Shown here: piece by piece, positions 25,739 through 61,810 of the stretch
Layout of the letters: every line of letters starts with the position of its first letter
How positions within the stretch are numbered: the stretch's first letter is position 1
Virus record (IMG/VR): IMGVR_UViG_3300042505_000752
Span: 62,001-126,000 of that record
DNA from: a virus
DNA length: 64,000 bases
Direction: 5' to 3' (one strand)
Program-made: the position numbers and the translations under genes
Notes under the pieces: generated by a model
What the model saw: only the letters and a program-made list of their open reading frames with translations
Databases searched by the model: none
Told to the model about the DNA's origin: nothing

Positions 25739-26542
25739 ATGACACTTCCTTTCATTAAACTCGTCGTACCAACCGCTCTTAAGCAATATAAGAATGGTCA
25801 GTTGGCAGAGAGTGTGCTTGCGCCAGTTAAGACTGGCGGAAAAATGTATGCACCTGTCGCCTCTCAATTTAATAAGATGTATGACGCGGCGCTCGCTGCT
25901 GGGTTTAAACTGAAGAATGTTGGCGACTACCGCTCTTTTCAAGGTCAGTTGTCAATGTTTATGGATCGTTATGTAACGACAGACACTGGCACGGGTGTAA
26001 CTCGCCAATACGAAGGTAAGACTTGGTATCTCAAAAAGGGCAAGGCTCCTTCAGCCGCCCCAGACCCAACTGGTCTAAAGGGTTCTAATCATGGCTGGGG
26101 ACTAGCAATTGACCTCGGTTACGATGTCAACGGTAAACTCACCTCAATGGGTGGTGCTTGCTTTGATTGGATGTGCGCCAACGCCCCCAAGTATGGTTTC
26201 TACCTTCAGGGCAACAACAAGGCATCCAAGGAATTTGAAGCGTGGCACTGGCAGTACGCTCTTGGTGATGCTTCTCCAGACGGTTCAGTTCAAGCCGCTC
26301 CTACATCCGCCCCTGCACCTGCCCCCGCTGGCGGTGGAATGAAGTTTGATTACCCTGGCGCGCCAGTTAAATTAGGTTCAAAGGGAACTGCCGCCTCCCT
26401 TGTTCAAGCAATCATTGGTGCAAAAGCAGATGGAGACTTTGGTCCGAAGTCTGTCGCCTCACTAAAGGCTTGGCAAACTGCACATGGCTTAACTGCCGAT
26501 GGTTCAGTCGGACCAGTCACATGGAAAAAGATGTTTGGCTGA
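25739..26542 (+). CDS. endolysin: M15-type D,D-carboxypeptidase/endopeptidase with peptidoglycan-binding domain
   Basis: 267 residues without signal peptide, so it needs a holin. The N-terminal about 185 residues are a VanY/M15 zinc peptidase: SNHGWGLAID gives zinc ligands H118 and D125, and EAWHW gives H170 and the catalytic glutamate. An Ala/Pro linker (APTSAPAPAPAGGG) joins it to a PG_binding_1 domain (about 205-267, VKLGSKG...ADGDFGPKSVASLKAWQ...GLTADGSVGPVTW). It cleaves peptide cross-bridges or stem peptides of the host wall. The two preceding small membrane proteins are its likely holins. Confidence 0.93.
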   Translation: MTLPFIKLVVPTALKQYKNGQLAESVLAPVKTGGKMYAPVASQFNKMYDAALAAGFKLKNVGDYRSFQGQLSMFMDRYVTTDTGTGVTRQYEGKTWYLKKGKAPSAAPDPTGLKGSNHGWGLAIDLGYDVNGKLTSMGGACFDWMCANAPKYGFYLQGNNKASKEFEAWHWQYALGDASPDGSVQAAPTSAPAPAPAGGGMKFDYPGAPVKLGSKGTAASLVQAIIGAKADGDFGPKSVASLKAWQTAHGLTADGSVGPVTWKKMFG

Positions 26543-39670: not shown

Positions 39671-39691
39671 TTATCCACAGACTTATCCACA
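39671..39691. repeat. two perfect DnaA boxes
   Basis: TTATCCACA at 39671-39679 and 39683-39691, in the divergent region between 39509 and 39840. Confidence 0.75.
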
Positions 39692-40572: not shown

Positions 40573-41922
40573 TCAGTCGTCTAAGTTTCGTTCTTTCCAA
40601 AATGACGAGTTCTTGATTTCACCAACAGCGTTAGCCTTGAGTCGCTTACCTTGCTTGACTTGTTTCAATGCCTTGATAGCACCTACAACATCATTAACTT
40701 GGTGAATACTGTGCTTAATAACAAGGTTCGCACACTCGTCAGTCAGGTTGGCAAAGTTATTGTCGCCCTTGCCATCAGTAACATAACCATCGCAAACCCA
40801 AATGAATGGTTCGCCTTGCTTACGCTTGGCTTGTGCGAAACGAATAGCAGGACCATCAACACCGTTACCGCCGTTGCCAGCAGGAACTTTCTCAACAACC
40901 TTGCCTCGTTCTGCCATTACCCAAACATTCGGGATTTCCTCAGAACCAGTTCGGTGAGAGTAACCAATGATTACGCAACCGGGCGCTTCCTCAATGATCT
41001 CCCACAAGTTTTCTGTTTCCAAACGCATTGAACCTGATTGGTCAATAAGAACAACACCGCCTCGTCCCTTGGCACGACGATCAAAAATGCGTCGTTCAGG
41101 GTCTGTCAACATTCGTCCAATGCGACGAGGGTTGCGACCAATGTTAGTAGCAACTCTTTTTCGTCCAAGGTTTCCGTCAACAGCACGAGGCTTTGGAAGT
41201 TCTAATTCAATAAGTCTAGCGAACGCACCAGCGCCTGATTTTGCAATGTTCTTGACATCAGGGATTTCCTCGTTACCAAACTCATCAGGAGTTCCATCGT
41301 TACTCTCAGGCTTTAGCAAACTTTCAAGAAGCCGTGCAATGGGAACAGTCAACTTGTTGAAACCTTGCGGTAGACCATTCTCATCCGCCACCGTGGAAGC
41401 AACAGCAGGTGTTTTTTTCCATATCTTGGCGAGTGCTTTTTGCAATTCTCGTGCTTGCTTCTCAAACTCAGGATTCGTTGTCTTGAGTCCTCGTAAGAAG
41501 TTTGCACCAGCCTTAGTGCCAGCGACAGCAGGAAGGAAACGAACAACTCCGTTCCAATCTCCGTTCTCGCCAATGATTTTTCCTGTCTGCGATTCAGAAC
41601 CGTCTGCTAGTGCGTCAATAGGGAAGCCCTGTTTTGCAACCAACATATTCACACGAAACTCCTCTGCCATCATAAGCAGATCGGTTTCAATTCCTAGTGC
41701 CAGCATTGCTTCAGGATTCGTTGGCGAAACCTTTGCGTGCATGAGTTCGTGAGCACGAACGACACGAGAAGTGTCGTCAGCACCGTACGGTACTCGCATT
41801 TTTGCCGCTCGCATTTCTGTCCATGCGTCGCCTCGCACGGGGTTGCCCTCTTGGACTTCCCACGCACGAGGCTCAATGTCACGCCTGTTGATAAATTCGG
41901 GCATTGCTTTCATGACTTGCAT
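40573..41922 (-). CDS. VWA-domain protein with N-terminal HExxH (CobT/metallopeptidase-like)
   Basis: 449 residues. N-terminal half holds RAHELMHAKVSP (H58, E59, H62), a gluzincin-type zinc motif as found in the putative VWA-metallopeptidase family. C-terminal half holds GGVVLIDQSGSM (about 285-297), a complete MIDAS motif, and later ADGYVTDG. The gene follows the MoxR-like ATPase one base after its stop; in this family the AAA+ protein (MoxR/CobS) and VWA protein (CobT-like) work as a chelatase or remodelling pair. The phage target is unknown. The dispersed repeat occurs inside this gene (41385-41395). Confidence 0.87.
   Translation of the reverse strand: MQVMKAMPEFINRRDIEPRAWEVQEGNPVRGDAWTEMRAAKMRVPYGADDTSRVVRAHELMHAKVSPTNPEAMLALGIETDLLMMAEEFRVNMLVAKQGFPIDALADGSESQTGKIIGENGDWNGVVRFLPAVAGTKAGANFLRGLKTTNPEFEKQARELQKALAKIWKKTPAVASTVADENGLPQGFNKLTVPIARLLESLLKPESNDGTPDEFGNEEIPDVKNIAKSGAGAFARLIELELPKPRAVDGNLGRKRVATNIGRNPRRIGRMLTDPERRIFDRRAKGRGGVVLIDQSGSMRLETENLWEIIEEAPGCVIIGYSHRTGSEEIPNVWVMAERGKVVEKVPAGNGGNGVDGPAIRFAQAKRKQGEPFIWVCDGYVTDGKGDNNFANLTDECANLVIKHSIHQVNDVVGAIKALKQVKQGKRLKANAVGEIKNSSFWKERNLDD
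41385..41395 (-). repeat. dispersed ACGGTGGCGGATGA repeat copy inside the VWA gene
   Basis: Copy of the polar repeat within coding sequence, same orientation as the intergenic ones. Confidence 0.65.
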
Positions 41923-41923
41923 A

Positions 41924-42643
41924 TCAAGAAACTCCGTTCACTAAGATTGCGTCTAATACGGACTGATAGTGCTTTCCGAAAGTAAGGCGTGCCGCCTTCT
42001 CCACAGAAACCGTTTTGCGTAGAGTGTCAAACGCCATGAATGCTCGGATAGAGAAACGCCTATCACGATCAGCGTCAGCCGAGGCGGCCGCCGCTCCTCG
42101 CAAGTCAGGCGAGAGCATTGTCAGAGCGTCAGGGTGGGGAGTGTTGATTCGCACAGCAACGGGAAAGCGGTCTTTGAGTGCTTGTGGCAACTCACGCATA
42201 TCCTCAATGTTGGTGGTCATGAACACCGAGAAACCTTTTTTCGGCTTCAAGATTCGTCCTGTCTCGGGGTGTTCCCAAGAGGCAGATTCCTCACTGTCAA
42301 ACATCGCAAGTAGTTGCGACATAACATCGCCTGACGCACGGTCAATTTCGTCAGCGACAACTCGTCCGCCGTTGATACCGTCGCCTTGCCACGCCTTGAT
42401 AACAGTGCCATCTTGCCACTTCCAAGTACCATCGCCTGATGGCTTGAAGTGACCAGTAACATCGGCGCTTGTCATATCCTCGTTACAGATAAGACGGTGA
42501 GCACCTGCCGAAACATTGCCAAATGTAAGACCAGCGAAAGTCTTGCCCGTTCCTGGCGGTCCGAACAGAATTAGTTTGTTGATTCCTGAGTCAAGAATGT
42601 CATTGACATCTTGCCAGCATTCGGGGAGATTAGTAGTAGTCAT
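41924..42643 (-). CDS. MoxR/CobS-type AAA+ ATPase
   Basis: 239 residues. Walker A GPPGTGKT (28-35), Walker B VVADEID (95-101), sensor 1 FMTTN (about 140) and an arginine-finger candidate in ALKDRFPV are present, with the MoxR helix-2 insert (DGTVIKAWQGDGINGG). The hexameric ATPase would act with the following VWA protein, which starts one base after its stop. Such MoxR/VWA pairs occur in several large phages; roles in remodelling host or virion complexes are suggested. Own TTGCAA-17-TATACT promoter. Confidence 0.9.
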   Translation of the reverse strand: MTTTNLPECWQDVNDILDSGINKLILFGPPGTGKTFAGLTFGNVSAGAHRLICNEDMTSADVTGHFKPSGDGTWKWQDGTVIKAWQGDGINGGRVVADEIDRASGDVMSQLLAMFDSEESASWEHPETGRILKPKKGFSVFMTTNIEDMRELPQALKDRFPVAVRINTPHPDALTMLSPDLRGAAAASADADRDRRFSIRAFMAFDTLRKTVSVEKAARLTFGKHYQSVLDAILVNGVS

Positions 42644-44143: not shown

Positions 44144-44168
44144 CCCCCCAAAAATTTCTGGGGGTTTT
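44144..44168 (+). terminator. intrinsic terminator after the 43814 gene
   Basis: CCCCC ... GGGGGTTTT with a 10-base A/T loop, in the region between convergent genes; one DnaA box (44188-44196) follows. Confidence 0.6.
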
Positions 44169-44206
44169 CCACAGGCTGGGGATAACCTGTGGATAACTTT
44201 GATCCG

Positions 44207-45335: not shown

Positions 45336-45380
45336 TGTGGATAACCTTTATCCACAGCCTGTGGATAAACCTGTGGATAA
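45336..45380. repeat. four perfect DnaA boxes
   Basis: TGTGGATAA/TTATCCACA at 45336, 45348, 45360 and 45372, spaced exactly 12 bases apart, one of them inverted. They lie after a GGGGGAGG-GAAA-CCTCCCCC hairpin (45310-45329) between convergent genes. Confidence 0.8.
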
Positions 45381-53095: not shown

Positions 53096-53124
53096 AGTAT
53101 ACACCTAGGGTGTAGCACTTACAC
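53096..53124 (-). promoter_or_regulatory. promoter for the 53059 gene
   Basis: -35 GTGTAA, 17-bp spacer with CTACAC, -10 TATACT; perfect TACACC-CTA-GGTGTA palindrome. Confidence 0.78.
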
Positions 53125-53398
53125 CCTTATTTGTGTTACAGAATGGTTACAGATTTATGACGGAAATGTAATGGAGAGCCAAAATGCCGATATGGGCAAT
53201 GTGTCACCATTACACCCTAGAACGCTCTCTAAGCGCCTGACCCCCCTCTCCGCCCCTAGCACCTATTCTTGAGCCTGAAACGGCTCAGAGACGATTTCCA
53301 CAGATTTATACACAGCCTCTGAGCAGGGGAAATGTGGCAAAACCCCAGCGTGAGGGCACTTTTTACATAACCCCTGCTAGTTGGCTTACACACGGTGG
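53125..53398. other. non-coding left flank of the origin-like region
   Basis: No gene seen. Contains a GAGCC-TGAAAC-GGCTC hairpin (about 53272-53287) and a DnaA-like box TTATACACA (53306-53314). Confidence 0.5.
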
Positions 53399-53737
53399 TT
53401 ATCCACAGAAGTGACCACTTACCACCAGATTTCACCAGTAGTTATCCACAGGGGTGTGTATAAAGTTGGGGATAAGGTTATCCACAGGATATCCACAGGG
53501 TGTGGATAAAGTAGTTGTACAGTACAAGTAAGTTATCCACAGGGTTGTGGATAAAGTTATCCACAGGGTGTGGATAAAGGTGTGGATAAAGTTTTCCACA
53601 GGGTGTGGATAAACCTGTGGAAAAGATAGTTGTAGTCTACAAGTAAGTTTTCCACAGGTTGTGGATAAAGTTGTGGATAAAGTAGTTGTAGTATACAAGT
53701 AAGTTATCAACAGGGCTGTGGATAAAGTTGTGGATAA
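53399..53737. other. candidate replication origin: 14 perfect DnaA boxes
   Basis: TTATCCACA on the + strand at 53399, 53442, 53478, 53533 and 53557; its complement TGTGGATAA at 53501, 53546, 53569, 53581, 53604, 53660, 53672, 53717 and 53729. Near matches include TGTGTATAA (53455), ATATCCACA (53489), TTTTCCACA (53592, 53648), TGTGGAAAA (53616) and TTATCAACA (53704). Chance expectation for this 9-mer is about 0.5 in the whole window. Three palindromes TTGTA-N3-TACAA (53515, 53630, 53686) are interleaved. Host DnaA binding is the simplest reading. Next to it, 53815-53880 is AT-rich and could unwind. Confidence 0.75.
53515..53698. repeat. three palindromic repeats TTGTA-N3-TACAA
   Basis: At 53515-53527, 53630-53642 and 53686-53698, each followed by GTAAGTT and a DnaA box. 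The conserved unit is about 26 bases (RTAGTTGTA...TACAAGTAAGTT). Confidence 0.8.
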
Positions 53738-53970
53738 CTTTTCGCTCTGTAAAAAATTCTCTTCCGCCACCGTCAAAGTTTTAGAAACGAGGGGGCGGGG
53801 CTAGTCCCCTACTAATAAGAAGTGAAAAATCTGAACTTATAAAAAAAGCATTAGCCCCGTTTGTTTTTTCAAGAAGCATTAGCCCCGTTTGACTTTTGAG
53901 TTTTCCACAGGTTTTTCCACAGGCTGTGGATAAAGGGGGTAGGGTTTAACCCCCACCCCCACTTGGTCAC
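53738..53970. other. right flank of the origin-like region
   Basis: No gene. Polar repeat (53764-53774), CGGGGCTA (53799), AT-rich stretch with two direct copies of GCATTAGCCCCGTTTG (about 53847 and 53876), one perfect DnaA box (53925-53933) and a G/C-rich stretch ending the 53971 gene. Confidence 0.55.
53764..53774 (-). repeat. dispersed GACGGTGGCGGAAGA repeat copy
   Basis: Polar repeat adjoining the DnaA-box array. Confidence 0.7.
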
Positions 53971-54686: not shown

Positions 54687-54839
54687 ACTTGCCCACAGGG
54701 TTTTCCACAGGGGTGTGGATAACTTTGCGCGAAAAATCCGTGCGGGGCTAAGGGCTTGCCGACGCTCCCGCTAGCCCCGTTGCCTCAAAATCTGGCGGAC
54801 TCGCGATATGGACAGAACCCCGCAGGGCTTAGCGCCCCC

Positions 54840-55729: not shown

Positions 55730-57637
55730 ATGAATGGGCAACTAATACTAGGAACGGACACGCTTGTTGCCGTGTTCCCGTACGATAAGGCGCAAGTTGC
55801 GCGGATTAGAACGATACGCGGGGCTGTATGGGACAACGCATCTAAAACATGGCGGATACCCCTTACTCAATTCTCCAAGGCAACCGAACTTGCGCTGGAA
55901 CTTGGCTGGTGGATTAGCCCCGAAGTAGCAATGCTGAACATACCCAGTGAACCCGTGGACATGATGACGGTGAACAGCAAAACTGTGAGGCTTTCATTCT
56001 CGTTTGACCCAGTAAAAGTGCGTGCGGTGAAGCGGATACCAGGCATAACTTGGGACAAAAAGACGGCATCGTGGGAAGCCCCGCTCTCATCGCTATCGGA
56101 ATGTGCTGACTGGGCGAAGCAGTTTGACATGGAAGTAAGCGAAGATACGCAGACGCAAATATCAGAAATAACCGAAACCAGGTCAAAACTGATTGAGCAA
56201 TCACGGCAAACAGATGCTGACCTTGAAGTGGCGGGACTACCACTGCTTCCGTACCAAAGAGCGGGCGTGAAGTACGCTGCTGAGGCACGCAGATGCTTCA
56301 TTGCTGACGACATGGGACTTGGCAAAACACTTCAAGCAATCGCAACGCTGGAGTATGTTATGGATAGTTACCCCGCAGTTGTTGTCTGCCCACCCACGCT
56401 GGTACTGAACTGGAAGAACGAGTACAACAAGTGGCTACCAGGTAGAAATGTCGTCACGGTGAAGAACCGAAGCGAATTCCCAGACGGGGCTTATGATGTT
56501 GTCGTCGTTGGTTACTCAAACATCAACGCATGGGCGAACAAACTCCAAAAACACCGAAGTTATGTGTTTGACGAGTCGCATTACTGCAAAAGTGCTGATG
56601 CGCAGCGCACCAAGGCTGCCATCAAGATGGCGAAGTCGGCACCGAAAGAAGGAATTGTTCTTTGTTTGACTGGTACGCCCGTGACCAACCGCCCCGCTGA
56701 ATACGCCCCGCAGTTGGACATGCTTGGAAAACTCGCAGACTTTGGGGGCAAATGGGGGTTCTACCGACGGTATTGCGCAGCGTTCCGAGACAGATTTGGT
56801 CAATGGAACATTTCAGGCAACTCAAACTTGGAAGAACTCAACGACAGGCTTCGCGGAAACTGTTATATCCGAAGAACCAAGGACCAGGTACTGGAAGAAC
56901 TCCCACCCGTGCGCCACAACACGATCCTGATTGAAGGCACTGATGCGGGGCTGAAGGAGTATCGCAAAGCAGAAAACGACATCGTGAAGTATCTGATGGA
57001 GCGCGCTCGTCAAATTGCTGAAGAACTTGGTGAATCACCGAACTCCGCTGCGGTGCGAGCGAAGATGAAGGCAGAACGGAACGAACATTTGATCCGCATC
57101 GGCGTTCTTCGGAAGTTAGCCGCCAAAGCGAAGATGCCCGCTGTTATTGAGTGGGTTGACGGGCGCATTGAAGCGGGGCAAAAGGTAGTTATCGCCGCTC
57201 ACCACCGTGAAATCGTTGATGAACTCGCACAGAAGTATGGAAACATAAAGATTCAGGGAGGCATGGATGTCAATGATGTGGAAGCAAACAAGAAGATGTT
57301 TCAAGAGAAAAGTGTCACGGAAAGCCCCGTTATCGTTCTTTCCATCCAAGCAGCGAAAACAGGTCACACGCTGACCGCTTCTCAAGATGTCCTCTTCGTG
57401 GAACTCCCATGGACACCGAGCGATGTTGATCAAACTTACTCAAGATGCCACCGACTGGGACAAAAGGGCAGTGTAACAGCAACTTATCTACTTTGTCAAG
57501 GAACTGTTGATGAGCAAATCTACGATGTCATTGAACAGAAGCGTGGAGTTGTCAACGCTGCCACCGAGGGAATTGAAGTCAGCGGGGCAGGTGGAGAATT
57601 GTTTGACTACTACCTCCAACTGTCAATGAAATACTGA
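55730..57637 (+). CDS. SNF2-family helicase with HARP-like N-terminal repeats (SMARCAL1-like)
   Basis: 635 residues. Two HARP-like repeats at the N-terminus (RTIRGAVWDNASKTWRIPLTQF and KRIPGITWDKKTASWEAPLSSL) precede a SNF2 ATPase: LLPYQRAGVKY, DDMGLGKTLQAIA (Walker A about 193-199), DESH (about 280), LTGTPVTNRPAEYAPQLDML, and the helicase C part SIQAAKTGHTLTASQDVLFVELPW...DQTYSRCHRLGQKG with the arginine finger. Such enzymes anneal DNA and remodel stalled forks. The upstream LexA-box array fits DNA-damage induction. A GAGGCGGGG precedes the ATG, with no strong promoter recognised. Confidence 0.92.
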   Translation: MNGQLILGTDTLVAVFPYDKAQVARIRTIRGAVWDNASKTWRIPLTQFSKATELALELGWWISPEVAMLNIPSEPVDMMTVNSKTVRLSFSFDPVKVRAVKRIPGITWDKKTASWEAPLSSLSECADWAKQFDMEVSEDTQTQISEITETRSKLIEQSRQTDADLEVAGLPLLPYQRAGVKYAAEARRCFIADDMGLGKTLQAIATLEYVMDSYPAVVVCPPTLVLNWKNEYNKWLPGRNVVTVKNRSEFPDGAYDVVVVGYSNINAWANKLQKHRSYVFDESHYCKSADAQRTKAAIKMAKSAPKEGIVLCLTGTPVTNRPAEYAPQLDMLGKLADFGGKWGFYRRYCAAFRDRFGQWNISGNSNLEELNDRLRGNCYIRRTKDQVLEELPPVRHNTILIEGTDAGLKEYRKAENDIVKYLMERARQIAEELGESPNSAAVRAKMKAERNEHLIRIGVLRKLAAKAKMPAVIEWVDGRIEAGQKVVIAAHHREIVDELAQKYGNIKIQGGMDVNDVEANKKMFQEKSVTESPVIVLSIQAAKTGHTLTASQDVLFVELPWTPSDVDQTYSRCHRLGQKGSVTATYLLCQGTVDEQIYDVIEQKRGVVNAATEGIEVSGAGGELFDYYLQLSMKY

Positions 57638-61351: not shown

Positions 61352-61810
61352 ATGTCAGCATCACCGACAACACTTACAGGAAACCTTGTTTCAGATCCCG
61401 AACTTAAGTTCTTGGATAATGGAACAGCGAAATTATCAGGCTCTATTGCCGTTGGTCACTATTGGACAGACGCATCGGGCGAAAAGCAAGAAAAGACTTC
61501 ATTCATTGACTTCGTTGCATGGCGCTATCTTGCCGACGACGCAGCACGAGTGTTGGAAAAAGGCGTTCGTATCATTGTTACGGGTCGTCTTGAACAGCGT
61601 TCGTGGGAACAAGACGGGGCTAAGCGAAGCAAGGTTGAACTTATCGCTGACGACATCGCTGTCGCAGTGAAGTCAATTGAGTCGTTTGACCGTCGCCGTG
61701 CTGGTGAAAAGGGTGCTGTTGCGCCGAAGCCCGCAGCCGCTAAGCAGGCACAACGCACTGCGTACAAAGCACCGACACAATCCGTAATGGAAGATGCCGA
61801 GCCGTTCTGA
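61352..61810 (+). CDS. single-stranded DNA-binding protein
   Basis: 152 residues. OB-fold pattern: LTGNLVSDPELKFLDNGTAKLSGSIAVGH...TSFIDFVAWRYLADDAARVLEKGVRIIVTGRLEQRSWEQDGAKRSKVELIADDIAVAV, then a linker and an acidic C-terminal tip DAEPF, the usual protein-interaction tail of bacterial SSBs (DDDIPF type). It would protect ssDNA in replication with the helicase loader and replisome organiser (33.4-34.3 kb) and the SNF2 helicase. Confidence 0.93.
   Translation: MSASPTTLTGNLVSDPELKFLDNGTAKLSGSIAVGHYWTDASGEKQEKTSFIDFVAWRYLADDAARVLEKGVRIIVTGRLEQRSWEQDGAKRSKVELIADDIAVAVKSIESFDRRRAGEKGAVAPKPAAAKQAQRTAYKAPTQSVMEDAEPF

Follow-up and report, generated by a model that had tools for sequence, protein, structure and literature searches.

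Our analysis of the window, i.e., the whole 64,000-nucleotide stretch studied here (bases 62001-126000 of the 128,966-bp virus record L009), identifies a dense non-coding array of DnaA boxes which, to judge from its consensus, pitch and density, is very probably bound by the DnaA protein of the host. The array would thereby probably capture host DnaA, and we tentatively suggest that it acts as a collector of this protein in the control of phage replication, with the strands being unwound elsewhere in what would be a dispersed origin. We regard this latter reading as possible rather than probable.

The record ends in a direct terminal repeat of 193 bp with one mismatch (record positions 1-193 and 128774-128966) which, together with a circularly shifted close relative (G001), suggests that it is near-complete; the class assigned to the record states that there are no end repeats, despite this repeat. 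Genes for tail sheath, portal, capsid and terminase identify the phage as a myovirus. Its host is probably actinobacterial, judged solely from best tblastn matches, because proteins from phages of Arthrobacter and other Actinobacteria are the top hits for its primase-helicase and SNF2 helicase, with an identity of about 30%; a search via ribonucleotide reductase yielded no host. The preliminary description of this DNA had listed a single-strand DNA-binding protein (SSB) and a helicase loader, and had seen no initiator. The SSB gene is indeed present alongside that of the primase-helicase, and neither DnaA domain IV (PF08299) nor the DnaA ATPase domain (PF00308) was matched anywhere in the record. 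The loader did not hold up: no match of the IstB/DnaC type was found, and the AAA protein at 41924-42643 belongs to the AAA_5 class. DNA polymerase A was searched for in the record and not found, and no polymerase of any kind was seen among the large proteins scanned.

Architecture of the array and its likeness to actinobacterial oriC

Exactly 14 matches to TTATCCACA (5 on the + and 9 on the - strand) were counted at 53399-53737, in agreement with the 14 perfect boxes in 340 bp reported beforehand. The window as a whole holds 23 exact boxes versus 0.67 expected, with shuffled controls (n = 100) reaching a maximum of 4. Seven one-mismatch boxes fill gaps between the exact ones, which brings the array to 21 sites with 0-1 mismatch in 339 bp, while three boxes at an average distance below 100 bp are sufficient for a bacterial DnaA-box cluster (PMC7561715). 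The sites are regularly spaced, 16 of the 20 neighbouring steps being 11-13 bp and three being 32 bp, with a 20-bp spacer inserted, and the array overruns its previously described limits at both ends, with outliers at 53306 and 53901-53933 (Table 1). Rfam returned no match. A coding explanation was rejected, given that relatives differ by indels of about 21-22 bp.

A three-box pattern search of bacterial genomes led to loci L144 and L112 in actinobacterial MAGs, in both of which the array sits between the DnaA gene and the gene for the DNA polymerase III beta subunit (dnaN), i.e., at oriC. Like the phage array, these oriC arrays (i) employ the consensus TTATCCACA, with as many as 15 exact boxes in 350 bp, (ii) exhibit a pitch of 11-13 bp, with box spacing in chromosomal oriC peaking at 11-12 bp, and (iii) contain boxes in both orientations. 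They adjoin dnaA and dnaN, whereas the phage array does not. It had been fair to call the latter denser than most bacterial oriC regions, but its density is matched by chromosomal loci L144 and L106, where 350 bp hold 15 and 17 exact boxes, respectively. As an observation in its own right, three-box DnaA modules at L112:3304-3336 and L144:6210-6242 lie upstream of a HATPase/HTH gene directly preceding dnaA, and may represent a dnaA autoregulation site.

In TTWTNCACA, the consensus for DnaA boxes (PMC7561715), positions 3 and 5 tolerate variation. One-mismatch boxes differ most at position 3 in dense genome loci, and mainly at positions 3 and 5 in other phage arrays; those of this phage alone are few, with variant positions more spread. 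The boxes of the array are unusually mixed in orientation: same-way neighbours account for 5 of 14 pairs versus 74 of 98 in chromosomal arrays (p = 0.004, for a single locus). For phage arrays taken together, the difference in orientation bias from chromosomal arrays is not significant (p = 0.14). Host DnaA is the likely ligand because actinobacterial oriCs share both density and lattice with the array. The use of host DnaA proposed in the preliminary description is supported by the oriC-like consensus, pitch and density and by the lack of a phage DnaA domain.

The three TTGTA-N3-TACAA palindromes said to be interleaved with the boxes were all found. They reside, however, inside the duplicated 20-bp spacers, as part of a repeated 58-nt unit, and the closest relative has lost one copy and carries another that is mutated to TTGTACTGTGCAA. 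Hence, we do not take them to be a separate conserved element.

Table 1. Features of the array and its surroundings, in window coordinates
Feature	Position	Strand	Basis or remark
Core array of 21 DnaA boxes, 14 exact and 7 with one mismatch, in mixed orientation	53399..53737		box scan
Outlying one-mismatch DnaA box TTATACACA	53306..53314	+	box scan
Three-box module TTTTCCACA/TTTTCCACA/TTATCCACA, 12-bp pitch	53901..53933		box scan
Palindrome 1, TTGTA-N3-TACAA, in 20-bp spacer between boxes	53515..53527		mutated in L016
Palindrome 2, TTGTA-N3-TACAA	53630..53642		conserved in L016
Palindrome 3, TTGTA-N3-TACAA	53686..53698		absent in L016
Least stable 40 bp near array (99.7th percentile of genome), 72 bp past last core box	53809..53848		stability scan
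CGGGGCTA beside array	53796..53803	+	motif scan
CGGGGCTA	53852..53859	-	motif scan
CGGGGCTA	53880..53887	-	motif scan
Non-coding core; relative L016 has it almost intact except for indels of box units, with different small genes on its flanks	53100..53935		alignment
Satellite cluster, 2 exact boxes, just upstream of - strand sigma70-like promoter (-10 at record 101625)	39671..39691	+	box and promoter scan
Satellite cluster, 3 boxes (1 exact)	44165..44196		box scan
Satellite cluster of 4 exact boxes with 12-bp pitch; the relative has a counterpart	45336..45380		box scan
Satellite pair of boxes, 1 exact	54701..54722		box scan
Gene for SNF2-family DNA helicase, some 2 kb away from array	55730..57637	+	query for finding relatives
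SSB gene	61352..61810	+	confirmed

Origin signatures and dispersed box clusters

The preliminary description had implied a replication origin at 53399-53737, a claim that the features typical of origins do not bear out. There is no switch in GC skew at the array, cumulative skew being flat through 115.4 kb of the record and attaining its minimum near 59 kb, where structural genes diverge; because this minimum coincides with a change in gene direction, skew in this genome mostly reports transcription. A DnaA-trio was defined as ([CT]T[AT])n, with n of at least 4, lying no more than about 20 bp away from a box. Such trios occur together with AT-rich DNA 4-13 bp after a box in loci L144, L112, L106, L145, L126 and L110. 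The main array has none, and none was detected in 21 further arrays from phages, each holding 5 or more exact boxes per 350 bp. When the minimum is raised to 7 exact boxes, a trio is present in 8 of 16 chromosomal but 0 of 9 phage arrays (p = 0.02), a comparison that is supportive rather than decisive because chromosomal loci devoid of a trio may be non-unwinding halves of bipartite origins, or non-origins. Likewise, no AT-rich unwinding element abuts the array on the correct side, the nearest unstable 40 bp being located on the wrong one. The oriCs of L144 and L112 thus differ from the phage array in possessing a unit composed of box, GC, DnaA-trio and AT-rich DNA. The origin reading is weakened because the array lacks this unwinding unit carried by dense chromosomal oriCs, and the array is probably not a stand-alone origin. 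Its combination of multiple DnaA boxes with the lack of an unwinding element is that of a datA-type site.

Nor is the array a unique site, as six further box clusters are present in the record. The latter contains 31 exact boxes (30 intergenic and 1 in a called gene), mostly in seven clusters which span about 28 kb and are located at record positions 318-469, 101671-101691, 106165-106196, 107336-107380, 115306-115933 (the main array), 116701-116722 and 127385-127417. A second repeated motif, CGGGGCTA, occurs in 27 copies from record position 490 to 127293, in both orientations and with 25 copies being intergenic; 23 of the 27 are in the window, at 34149-61895, versus 0.76 expected. All seven clusters have CGGGGCTA within 85 bp, for which random intergenic placement of clusters gives p of about 1e-4. 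In the diverged relatives L019 and L021, CGGGGCTT is abundant in place of CGGGGCTA, and the latter is absent from the dense-array phages checked (L039, L062 and L068). Separately, sigma70-like promoters of the form TTGTAA-N17-TATACT recur before small early genes at record 99560-126755 (about 37560-64000 of the window).

The cluster at record 318-469, which is outside the window and separated from the main array by 13.7 kb, comprises ten boxes, five of them exact, in one orientation throughout. An AT-rich 40-mer at record 275-314, which ranks at the 99.9th percentile of instability, stops 3 bp short of the first box of this cluster, on the same side as in oriC L144, and no DnaA-trio with n of at least 4 was found at this cluster. 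On the basis of this layout, record 275-469 looks like the most oriC-like site of the record, but the AT-rich stretch may simply be part of a promoter.

Conservation and arrays in other phages

Comparison with the relative L016, which likewise has 31 exact boxes, reveals a nearly identical non-coding core of about 830 bp in which only box units have been gained or lost. Small genes flanking the array are not the same from one close relative to another, whereas the DNA around these genes is preserved. Since the core is kept while neighbouring genes are exchanged, it looks like a retained cis-acting element. Among relatives with 55-80% identity, the contigs of which are short for synteny, L019 has a 4-box cluster, and L021 has none over 6 kb upstream of its helicase. 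No nucleotide relatives were found among isolated phages; the array alone, when used as a query against these, gave weak piecewise matches leading to modules in Streptomyces and Microbacterium phages, and a plasmid search gave nothing notable. The modules of Streptomyces phage Wakanda and Microbacterium phage Zooman resemble the array in featuring TTATCCACAGSCTGTGGATAAACCTGTGGA with a 12-bp pitch and in being non-coding among small genes, but comprise just 2-3 boxes.

A three-box pattern scan of viral contigs returned 50 stretches, several of which have 10-21 boxes per 350 bp in phages that share little gene content. The uncultivated phages L039, L062, L068, L069 and L079 share the lattice of the array and have 13-21 boxes per 350 bp, counting those with 0-1 mismatch, but their gene content is mostly unrelated. 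PF08299 was detected in none of ten comparison phage records. Clusters of 3-4 boxes were seen in one Lactococcus phage and one T5-like phage. In T5-like phages, DnaA boxes have been mentioned in passing for a region proposed as an injection stop signal (PMC13250531) which, like the array, is non-coding and contains repeats, palindromes and DnaA boxes, and the T5-like phage L205 has small clusters with 12-bp steps. These clusters have about 4 boxes, whereas the array has 21 and lies some 13 kb away from the terminal repeat of the record. In the literature covered, which includes few subscription journals, the injection stop signal of T5 (PMC13250531) was the sole phage context in which DnaA boxes were found to be mentioned, and no report of them was found for actinophages. 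Because most subscription journals are outside this coverage, the absence is weak evidence for the novelty of the actinophage arrays.

Possible roles of the array

In the dispersed-origin reading that we tentatively prefer, the array would be a non-coding nucleoprotein platform for host DnaA, domain IV of which would contact the 20-odd consensus sites packed every 11-13 bp, while the smaller clusters would take up further DnaA. Host DnaA would thus be gathered among the early and replication genes of the phage, as the DnaA-loading part of the origin, and strand opening would occur at a separate site. The best candidate for the latter is the cluster at record 318-469, because of its ten boxes of the same orientation and the AT-rich stretch abutting the first box on the oriC side. 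Replication would subsequently be carried on by the primase-helicase and SSB of the phage together with the polymerase of the host. This reading is favoured by boxes exceeding chance, likeness to oriC, mismatches that in other phage arrays fall mainly at the loose consensus positions, the failure to detect a phage DnaA, a gene set in which a primase-helicase and SSB but no polymerase were found, the conserved core and the layout of cluster 318-469, and is disfavoured by the lack of a skew change, the lack of a trio at either site, the mixed orientation and the spread of the clusters.

Its main rival, which we consider rather unlikely, is that the array serves as a multi-copy, datA-like DnaA sponge: the 31 exact and the near-consensus sites of each genome would soak up host DnaA, so that replicating phage DNA would stop new rounds of host chromosome replication and free nucleotides and polymerase, with no unwinding at the array being needed. 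Missing trios at the array and in the other phage arrays, many dispersed clusters, mixed box orientation and the recurrence of arrays in unrelated phages, with DnaA detected in none, all point in this direction. We know of no phage example of a DnaA sponge, however, and such a role leaves unexplained both the CGGGGCTA motif beside each cluster and the oriC-like layout of cluster 318-469. The datA site has few boxes and needs IHF, while the array has about 20 boxes and is phage-borne. E. coli datA and DARS are, like the array, non-coding DnaA-box clusters without an unwinding element (see PMC4585315).

The remaining readings appear less probable. That the array is a stand-alone oriC-like origin, where host DnaA melts adjoining DNA and loads helicase, is improbable: a density equal to that of dense chromosomal oriCs, the unstable stretch 72 bp off and the conserved non-coding core are outweighed by the lack of a skew switch, the non-adjacent, wrong-side position of that stretch, the missing trio and the failure to find a helicase loader. 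Transcriptional control, with the clusters acting as DnaA-dependent operators of early genes in the manner of boxes near dnaA-operon promoters, is very unlikely, even though the cluster at 39671 is just upstream of a sigma70-like promoter and L112 and L144 have three-box modules upstream of the gene preceding dnaA. No recognised promoter is located within 400 bp of the core array, for which the promoter-operator reading was rejected on this ground, or of four other clusters, and 21 boxes are excessive for an operator. We deem it highly improbable that the boxes are sites for a phage protein which happens to share the 9-mer, be it in a T5-like signal for pausing DNA entry or for a partition or repressor protein. 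The boxes at the proposed injection stop signal of T5-like phages (PMC13250531) and those in L205 are consistent with such a role, and CGGGGCTA next to every cluster suggests a second protein; the exact DnaA consensus and the oriC-like lattice argue against it, as does the distance from the terminal repeat.

To our knowledge, host DnaA is not usually seen as a target or tool of phages, except in plasmid-like ones. If arrays as rich as the densest chromosomal oriCs recur in unrelated phages but lack the unwinding part, then some large phages would either initiate via host DnaA or use decoy DNA to disarm initiation in the host, and both meanings are directly testable with a plasmid bearing about 850 bp. 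It is tempting to speculate, albeit we consider it unlikely, that unrelated phages independently evolved multi-cluster DnaA sponges of 10-21 consensus boxes without unwinding elements, which disarm host initiation as the phage genome is copied. If the sponge reading is true, this would constitute a host shut-off mechanism that resides purely in the DNA.

Two further loci of the window deserve mention. At 40573-42643, the AAA_5 ATPase is encoded beside a 449-aa protein of phrog_33218, possibly as a MoxR/CobS-like pair, and at 25739-26542 an endolysin-like gene combines a VanY D,D-carboxypeptidase with a peptidoglycan-binding domain.
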